A stretch of DNA of 64,000 nt, taken from an uncultured Burkholderiales bacterium. GTDB taxonomy: Bacteria > Pseudomonadota > Gammaproteobacteria > Burkholderiales > Burkholderiaceae_C. Each line of letters starts with the position of its first letter. Within the stretch, counting starts at the first letter, position 1. A program made the translations under genes and the position numbers. This document shows, one piece after another, positions 60,405-62,075 of the stretch. The notes beneath the pieces are model-generated. The model saw only the letters and a list, made by a program, of their open reading frames with translations, was not told the origin of the DNA and ran no database searches. Where the stretch lies: positions 1-64,000 of the forward strand of contig CALMIL010000206.1 in NCBI GenBank assembly GCA_937864005.1, written 5' to 3'.

Positions 60405-60571
60405 CTAGTGCAGTGTTTCATGCTGTGAGGCAGTTAAGAAAACCGATGGATTTGCCCTCGTGGCAAGGCGCAAACCGCAGCCATACCCGGTGGTATGGCG
60501 AGGATTTGCAACGCCGCCACGGGGGCAAAGACGCGGTTTTATGTGCCGAACAGCGTGAAACACTGCGCTAG
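60405..60571. repeat. 167-bp imperfect palindrome before rng
   Basis: The two halves of 60405-60571 are imperfect inverted copies. The outer 22 bases match 20 of 22 (60405-60426 with 60550-60571), both mismatches being T/C and so compatible with G-U pairing. A 14-base block matches 13 of 14 (60451-60464 with 60516-60529), and the centre is a perfect 8-bp hairpin, GCCATACC/GGTATGGC (60480-60487 with 60492-60499) around CGGT. Both ends are bounded by CTAG. It could be a miniature inverted-repeat element or a long RNA hairpin that controls rng. It encodes no protein. Confidence 0.85.
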
Positions 60572-60578
60572 GCTCCCC

Positions 60579-62075
60579 ATGCAAGACATCCTCATCAACT
60601 GGACGCCGCAGGAGACGCGCGTTGCCGTCGTCGAGAACGGCGCGGTGCAGGAATTGCACGTCGAGCGCACCGCCGCGCGCGGCCGGGTGAGCAATATCTA
60701 CACCGGACGCGTCGTGCGCGTGCTGCCGGGCATGCAGTCGGCATTCATCGATGTCGGACTCGAGCGCGCCGCCTTCCTGCACGTCGCCGATCTTCAGCTC
60801 TACGGCGCGCCGCGCGCGGCGGGCGGGGCCGGATCGCGCGGCGACAGCGGTGCGGCGGGCGGTGCTTCGCCGCTGCCGATCGAGAAGCTCGTCTTCGAGG
60901 GCCAGACGCTGATGGTGCAGGTGCTGAAGGACCCGATCGGCAGCAAGGGCGCGCGGCTGACGACGCAGATCAGCATCGCCGGGCGGCTGCTCGTCTTCCT
61001 GCCGCAGGACGATCACATCGGCGTCAGCCAGCGGATCGGCTCCTACGAGCTGCGCGAGGAACTGCGCGCGCGCGTGCAGGCGCTGGCCGGCGACGGCGGG
61101 GGCGGCTTCATCCTGCGCACGAATGCCGAGGACGCGACGGATGCGGAACTCGCCGACGATATCCGCTACCTGCGCAAGACCTGGGCTGCGGTGCGCGAGC
61201 GCGGCTTCAAGTCGCCGGCCGGGACGCTGCTGCACCAGGACCTCGGCCTCGCCGACCGCGTGCTGCGCGATCTGGTGAACGACGCGACCCAATCGGTGCG
61301 CATCGATTCGCGCGAGCAGTTCGAGCGGCTGCGCGCGTTCGGCACCGAATTCACGCCGACCTCGGTCATGAAGCTCGCGCATTACAGCGGCGAGCGGCCG
61401 ATCTTCGATCTGCACAATATCGACGAGGAGATCGCCTTCGCGCTCGCGCGGCGCGTCGAGCTGAAGTCGGGCGGCTATCTGATCATCGACCAGACCGAGG
61501 CGCTGACGACGGTCGATGTGAATACCGGCGGCTTCGTCGGCGCGCGCAACTTCGACGATACGATCTTCAAGACCAACCTCGAGGCGGCGCTCGCGATCGC
61601 GCGTCAGCTGCGGCTGCGCAACCTGGGCGGCATCATCATCATCGACTTCATCGACATGGTGCGCGAGGACCATCGATCCGCGGTGCTCGCCGAACTGCGC
61701 AAGCAGGTCGCCCGCGACCGCACGAAGACGACGGTGAGCGGCTTCACGCAGCTCGGCCTGGTCGAGATGACGAGAAAGCGCACGCGCGAGTCGCTTGCCC
61801 ACTTGCTGTGCGAACCGTGCCCGACCTGCGAGGGCAAGGGCCAGGTGAAGACGGCACGCACCGTGTGCTACGAGATCCTGCGCGAGATCCTGCGCGAGGC
61901 GCGCCAGTTCAACCCGCGCGAGTTTCGCGTCGTCGCCTCGGCGACGGTCGTCGAGATGCTGCTCGACGAGGAGGGTCAGCATCTCGCCGGCCTGTCGGAG
62001 TTCATCGGCAAGCCGATCTCGCTGCAGGCGGATCCGGTCGGCTCGCCGGAGCAGTACGACATCGTGCTGCTGTAG
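60579..62075 (+). CDS. rng: Ribonuclease G
   Basis: RNase G is a 5'-end-dependent endoribonuclease that matures 16S rRNA. The 498-residue product has an N-terminal S1 domain (35-135, with a Gly/Ala/Ser-rich insert after LQLYGAPR), the catalytic DNase I-like region with TVDVNTGGFVG and IIIIDFIDM carrying the metal-binding Asp residues, and the zinc-link CEPCPTCEGKG. It lacks the long C-terminal scaffold of RNase E. The start lies seven bases after the palindromic element, and the only Shine-Dalgarno-like bases (TAGG) straddle the end of that element. Confidence 0.95.
   Translation: MQDILINWTPQETRVAVVENGAVQELHVERTAARGRVSNIYTGRVVRVLPGMQSAFIDVGLERAAFLHVADLQLYGAPRAAGGAGSRGDSGAAGGASPLPIEKLVFEGQTLMVQVLKDPIGSKGARLTTQISIAGRLLVFLPQDDHIGVSQRIGSYELREELRARVQALAGDGGGGFILRTNAEDATDAELADDIRYLRKTWAAVRERGFKSPAGTLLHQDLGLADRVLRDLVNDATQSVRIDSREQFERLRAFGTEFTPTSVMKLAHYSGERPIFDLHNIDEEIAFALARRVELKSGGYLIIDQTEALTTVDVNTGGFVGARNFDDTIFKTNLEAALAIARQLRLRNLGGIIIIDFIDMVREDHRSAVLAELRKQVARDRTKTTVSGFTQLGLVEMTRKRTRESLAHLLCEPCPTCEGKGQVKTARTVCYEILREILREARQFNPREFRVVASATVVEMLLDEEGQHLAGLSEFIGKPISLQADPVGSPEQYDIVLL

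Follow-up and report, generated by a model that had tools for sequence, protein, structure and literature searches.

A CTAG-bordered miniature element in front of rng in an uncultured Burkholderiales bacterium, its likely IS630-family mover and a conserved core hairpin

RUP of Streptococcus pneumoniae, a 107-bp element for which IS630-Spn1 has been proposed as mover, provides a precedent for a MITE moved by an IS630 element (PMC2229807), and MITEPsy1 of Pseudomonas syringae duplicates its target, CTAG or YTAA, on insertion (PMC3189936). Here we compare these and other described systems with a palindrome at 60405-60571 of a 64,000-nucleotide stretch of DNA from an uncultured Burkholderiales bacterium (the window), which we assign to a MITE family called T1. 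Like T1, RUP is non-autonomous, has terminal repeats matching those of an IS630-family element, uses a TA-containing target and occurs in many intergenic copies (PMC2229807). In contrast, the terminal repeats of RUP are 9 bp long and no structure motif has been reported for it, whereas T1 forms one near-complete hairpin of 161 bp and contains a conserved core that is common beyond its own family. The Correia/NEMIS elements of Neisseria are likewise MITEs of approximately 100-200 bp with TA termini, RNA folding and a frequent location near gene starts, but according to their literature description both terminal and internal sequences differ, the T1 repeats match those of an IS630 element (L091, see below), and T1 contains no recognisable promoter-like site. 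MITEPsy1 shares the insertion at CTAG, but it is only 100 bp long, has other termini and a proposed IS5-type origin (ISPsy2), which places it closer to the core-bearing elements with IS5-type ends described below than to the window copy. The IS630 elements of the ISBmu8 group (L091, L228, L252-L254) agree with T1 in terminal repeats and CTAG context, but they are autonomous, approximately 1.17 kb long and, in the IS630 loci examined, contain no core hairpin; transposase relatives found on plasmids carry the annotation ISBmu8-like. Finally, ERIC/RU-1 and REP/BIME are also dispersed imperfect palindromes between genes, but have other hosts and termini, and several core-rich genomes are without a Y1 transposase match.

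Geometry of the palindrome and its empty sites

The palindrome carries CTAG at both borders (60405-60408 and 60568-60571). Between its outer arms (60405-60426 and 60550-60571), 20 of 22 positions match, as do 13 of 14 between the middle blocks (60451-60464 and 60516-60529), and the centre is a perfect 8-bp stem of GCCATACC (60480-60487) with GGTATGGC (60492-60499). Seven bases, GCTCCCC, lie between the end of the palindrome and the ATG at 60579. The coordinates and counts of a first-pass annotation were thereby reproduced. The predicted fold has an energy of -116.3 kcal/mol, compared to -66.4 ± 4.4 kcal/mol for dinucleotide shuffles (z = -11.25, 0/200), and a search for promoter-like sites or intrinsic terminators within the element found none. 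The short length (161 bp), the terminal inverted repeats and the lack of a transposase gene are those of a MITE. That no known family matches, as stated in the first-pass annotation, agrees with the Rfam search of the whole window, in which no family reached its threshold under gathering or relaxed settings (the 23 bits scored by a plant miRNA model, whose cut-off is 200, are an artefact of the long hairpin), and with a literature search by sequence words and topic, in which neither core nor family was described; a description may be contained in the Polaromonas JS666 genome paper, which is cited in a review as describing MITEs. The outer features are as follows:

60405..60571, no strand: whole palindrome, type T1 MITE, CTAG at each border (sequence, fold, genome copies, no counterpart at the G003/G004 site)
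60408..60568, no strand: element proper if TA is the duplicated target, 161 bp, G...C (end alignment; boundaries by analogy with the IS630 element L091)
60406..60407, no strand: presumed left TA target duplication, a 4-bp CTAG duplication being equally compatible (empty site; copy-border alignment)
60569..60570, no strand: presumed right TA target duplication (empty site; copy-border alignment)
60408..60437, forward strand: left terminal inverted repeat, resembling IS630-family ends, GTGYAGTGTT...CTTAA (ends of MITE and L091 compared side by side)
60539..60568, reverse strand: right terminal inverted repeat, resembling the same IS630-family ends (ends of MITE and L091 compared side by side)

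Two genomes of the same genus, G003 and G004, are empty at the rng site, which is an insertion polymorphism. In G003, whose RNase G shares 97% identity across the 140 N-terminal residues, the upstream region is the same sequence without the element and reads ...ACCAGGCGACCGCCAGGCTCACCATG with the junction GGCGACCGCCAGGCTCACCATG, and in G004 it reads GGCGATCGCCAGGCTCCCATG, whereas the window has GGCGATCG-CTAG-element-CTAG-GCTCCCCATG. Most simply, the element would have been gained in the lineage of the window. Because both empty sites have a single CCAG, which is not identical to the CTAG found twice in the window, the exact pre-insertion target is uncertain (CTAG, or CCAG mutated to CTAG). With CTAG borders and one CCAG at the empty site, duplications of TA and of CTAG are indistinguishable, and that TA was the one duplicated is our inference. 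A second copy (L004) is also missing at the matching site of G003; approximately 31 bp of unrelated sequence are located there, so this site is not clean.

Dispersed copies and the likely mover

An inserted miniature element with CTAG borders was one of the readings offered by the first-pass annotation, for which several dispersed copies in this genome and its relatives would speak. Such copies were found and, together with the two empty rng sites and the ends shared with an IS630-family element, they bear this reading out. The own genome (G000) has 29 matches to the palindrome, some of which are the same copies on the opposite strand; these comprise four further copies at 94-95% identity (one with an interrupted left arm), two copies at 82-86% identity and many partial copies, spread over other contigs. 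Four genomes of the same genus and several of the same family carry the element or its core, with approximately 64 element termini per strand in G028, and copy numbers from the G003 and G000 assemblies are lower bounds, as contigs G003:C32, C106, C443, C244, G000:C163 and C252 begin or end inside the element. Full-length T1 copies mostly measure 160-161 bp between TA dinucleotides, and CTAG is strongly preferred at both borders, with no conservation of the flanks further out. Plasmid records gave two matches, both core-only.

At L005/L026 (G000:C211:2741-3120) a T1 copy is split by approximately 200 bp of other sequence with ACAGCAT on both sides, suggestive of a nested insertion. L273 (G028:C10:50101-50176) is a 72-bp T1 derivative with both ends present and the core missing. 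At L136, a T1-type end, TGCAGTGTTTCGCGCTG..., adjoins the right-border CTAG of a core-bearing MITE of the CTAGTACGCC type, and it seems that the border CTAG of one element served another as its target.

IS630 elements insert at TA. A complete IS630-family element of approximately 1,170 bp (L091), located between C and G, was found in G004. Its ends, TAGTGTAGTGTTCTATTCTTGAGTGAACTTAA and, on the opposite strand, TAGTGCAGTGTTCCATTCTGTTTGGAACTTAA, are alike to the palindrome ends over approximately 30 bp each, and its transposase matches DDE_3 (PF13358) and NCBIfam transpos_IS630 (280.6 bits, cut-off 100). L228 is a second such element, Cupriavidus sp. KK10 has a relative, and a contig end in the own genome (L045) is 90% identical to the end of the IS630 element. 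An intact autonomous IS630 copy with both ends was not found in the own genome, where one may hide in assembly gaps at repeats, and no DDE_3 transposase was found in several core-rich genomes (e.g. Extensimonas vulgaris). A further locus of the own genome, L093 (G000:C10), has an IS630-like transposase gene with an open frame of 416 aa and approximately 82% identity to L091 over 1,120 bp; the match fails to reach the IS ends on either side, and a T1 fragment is located at C10:71-147. Judging from the shared ends, an IS630 transposase that duplicates TA inside CTAG likely moves the element.

As firmly as sequence allows, the palindrome is thus to be regarded as a MITE insertion. In the explanation that we consider very probable overall, a separate insertion sequence would supply an IS630-family transposase, which would recognise the terminal repeats GTGCAGTGTT... 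of the MITE and cut and paste it into CTAG sites with duplication of TA. The 161-bp MITE would have been inserted in this way at CTAG, or at CCAG mutated to CTAG, in the maf-rng interval seven bases before the rng start. Paired changes preserve the element as one long hairpin, and the core of approximately 55 bp, conserved in sequence too and used by related MITEs with other ends, some of them IS5-driven by appearance, probably has its own job for the element.

Paired changes and the core hairpin

The inner features of the element are the following:

60451..60464, forward strand: middle stem, left strand, variable in sequence among copies with pairing mostly retained (covariation helix 2; lowest segment conservation)
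60516..60529, forward strand: middle stem, right strand (covariation; segment conservation)
60463..60517, no strand: conserved core hairpin module GCAAGGCGCAAACCGCAGCNAT..ATNGCGAGGATTTGCAACGCNGC, common to MITEs with other arms (BLAST, pattern scans, segment conservation)
60480..60499, forward strand: apical stem-loop of the core, 8 bp with a 4-nt loop, compensatory changes across arm types (core comparisons)

The compensated differences noted in the first-pass annotation are real. Among 21 distinct T1 copies the fold of the window is kept in 95.2% of cells and 24 of the 66 stem pairs are altered on both sides, while pairing falls to 28-46% when the partner is slid by 1-3 columns. As the copies occupy unrelated sites, this covariation says nothing about rng, and the constraint belongs to the element. 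It is plausible that both ends must suit one transposase, and equally plausible that the element needs its hairpin or is corrected from its other arm. Conservation was measured per segment in T1 copies that had been found with the whole element and a loose core filter only. It is highest in the core arms (mean 96%, 68% of columns invariant), followed by the terminal repeats (89%, 37%) and the middle stem (69%, 0%). The middle stem is thus least conserved yet mostly paired, and recognition of the terminal repeats alone is insufficient as an explanation.

BLAST with the whole element as query revealed palindromes in other genera that share the core or little more (query approximately 58-114) at approximately 80-91% identity. 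A core-pattern scan of named genomes gave, among the matches listed, mostly Burkholderiales, with core-bearing Extensimonas, Simplicispira, Acidovorax, Comamonas, Variovorax, Polaromonas, Roseateles, Hydrogenophaga, Castellaniella and others; the scan demanded an exact core and is therefore biased to conserved cores, whereas the BLAST result is independent of the pattern. An exact core occurs 11 times in the own genome, 30 times in G001, 40 times in G028 and 90 times in G030, and the reversed control pattern had no match in 61 genomes. The arms of 101 core elements among the matches listed fall into 13 sequence clusters, the largest of which (n = 54) grades between several terminal sequences with inner stem motifs in common. 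These elements are palindromic as well, the predicted fold pairing a median of 77% of the left arm, and the first base of the apical stem, which the search pattern did not fix, forms a Watson-Crick pair in 51 of 51 distinct 16-nt apices (shuffled mean 40%), as G-C, C-G or A-T.

The ends of one core-bearing cluster (TAGGGCGATGCTGAATAAGTC...) resemble those of a different insertion sequence. L279 of Extensimonas vulgaris (G061) is a CTAG-flanked element of approximately 1.16 kb with the ends TAGGGCTACGCTGAACAAGCC and TAGGGCAATGCTGAAAAAGTC, the comparison covering the terminal ~20 bases of this one element, and its transposase belongs to the IS5 family (NCBIfam transpos_IS5_4, 326.7 bits against 140; DDE_Tnp_1). 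Because this arm type matches the IS5-family L279 and the T1 ends match the IS630-family L091, core-bearing MITEs occur, by the likeness of their termini, with IS630-type and IS5-type ends, both at CTAG.

Alternative explanations for the core and for the position in front of rng

We tentatively propose that the ~55-bp core is a transposase-independent hairpin module, selected in sequence and pairing, which would stand in the centre of different Burkholderiales MITE lineages whether IS630 or IS5 moves them, a proposal that we rate as somewhat short of probable. Mere shared ancestry, with an old MITE whose ends were replaced between transposases around a functionless core, is possible, if rather doubtful; it is in line with the intergrading termini and retained inner stem motifs of the largest arm cluster (54/101), and the exact-core requirement of the scan favours conserved cores in any case. 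However, within T1 the core arms exceed both the terminal repeats and the middle stem in conservation, and under neutral descent the core would have decayed like the rest. A REP-like core with a Y1 (RAYT) transposase as its mover, the MITE arms being secondary, would account for a conserved palindrome with conserved asymmetric internal mismatches and high copy number, but the copies terminate in CTAG terminal repeats and no Y1_Tnp (PF01797) match was found in G000, G002, G004 or in G030 with its 90 exact cores; we therefore rejected this origin as very improbable.

The location of the insertion is defined by two further features:

60579..62075, forward strand: rng (ribonuclease G), gene downstream of the insertion (ORF; NCBIfam)
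60570..60572, forward strand: AGG, probable rng Shine-Dalgarno, formed by the right CTAG copy and the flanking G (empty site also reads AGGCTCACCATG)

The gene is identified by NCBIfam as ribonuclease G (644 bits), and the upstream gene maf is NCBIfam-confirmed. The first-pass annotation had also considered a selected RNA fold that controls rng in the manner of RNase E, i.e. a cis-regulatory hairpin in the 5' UTR that gates translation or is cleaved by RNase G/E, giving RNase G control over its own mRNA. The distance of 7 nt to the rng start, the strong RNA fold and the family-wide compensatory changes would fit, and in G030 a palindrome whose arms are unrelated and whose core has diverged lies approximately 100 nt before rng. 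An autoregulatory 5' UTR of the RNase E type would call for conservation upstream of rng, but the element is missing there in the closest relatives, G003 and G004, and has its other copies elsewhere. T1 was found at 0 of 10 rng loci of relatives, with a core match in G030 only; one core near rng is unremarkable in a genome with 90 exact cores, and the covariation is seen in copies at unrelated loci. This idea is not supported and is, in our view, extremely improbable. It is possible, although we remain doubtful, that the MITE incidentally alters rng expression through a hairpin in the mRNA directly next to the Shine-Dalgarno sequence, through RNase III cleavage or through the in-frame ATG at 60495, from which the reading frame stays open into rng. 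For Correia elements, it is documented that RNase III processes mRNAs bearing the MITE (PMC10969869), and the predicted exposure of the Shine-Dalgarno is lower when the element is present (unpaired 0.22 vs 0.38-0.78 without). On the other hand, the predicted start codon is more exposed (0.43 vs 0.20-0.35), and the right CTAG copy restores the AGG six bases before the ATG, so that the insertion kept the probable Shine-Dalgarno. As the predicted exposure of the Shine-Dalgarno falls while that of the AUG rises, no direction of effect on rng can be given.

The palindrome in G030, another genus, is located at approximately 1300-1470 of L072 with arms GAGAGGCTGAGAG...CTCTCAGCCTC, and its position is probably due to chance. 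The ATG at 60495 in the right arm of the MITE is a start that gene callers may pick, and the frame 60495-60578 would add 28 residues (MARICNAATGAKTRFYVPNSVKHCARLP) to RNase G.

For the window, a MITE insertion replaces the attractive but unsupported idea of RNase G autoregulation, and the case cautions that compensatory base changes alone do not demonstrate a gene-specific RNA. If the core is indeed a selected module, it would act alike in each MITE, e.g. as folded DNA or RNA bound by a common host factor, and the element would be a hitch-hiker that changes vehicles by exchanging its termini at CTAG sites. The usual view defines MITEs by their ends; a family whose best-conserved part is its centre, and whose ends are of two transposase types, suggests that selection can act on the inside of a MITE.
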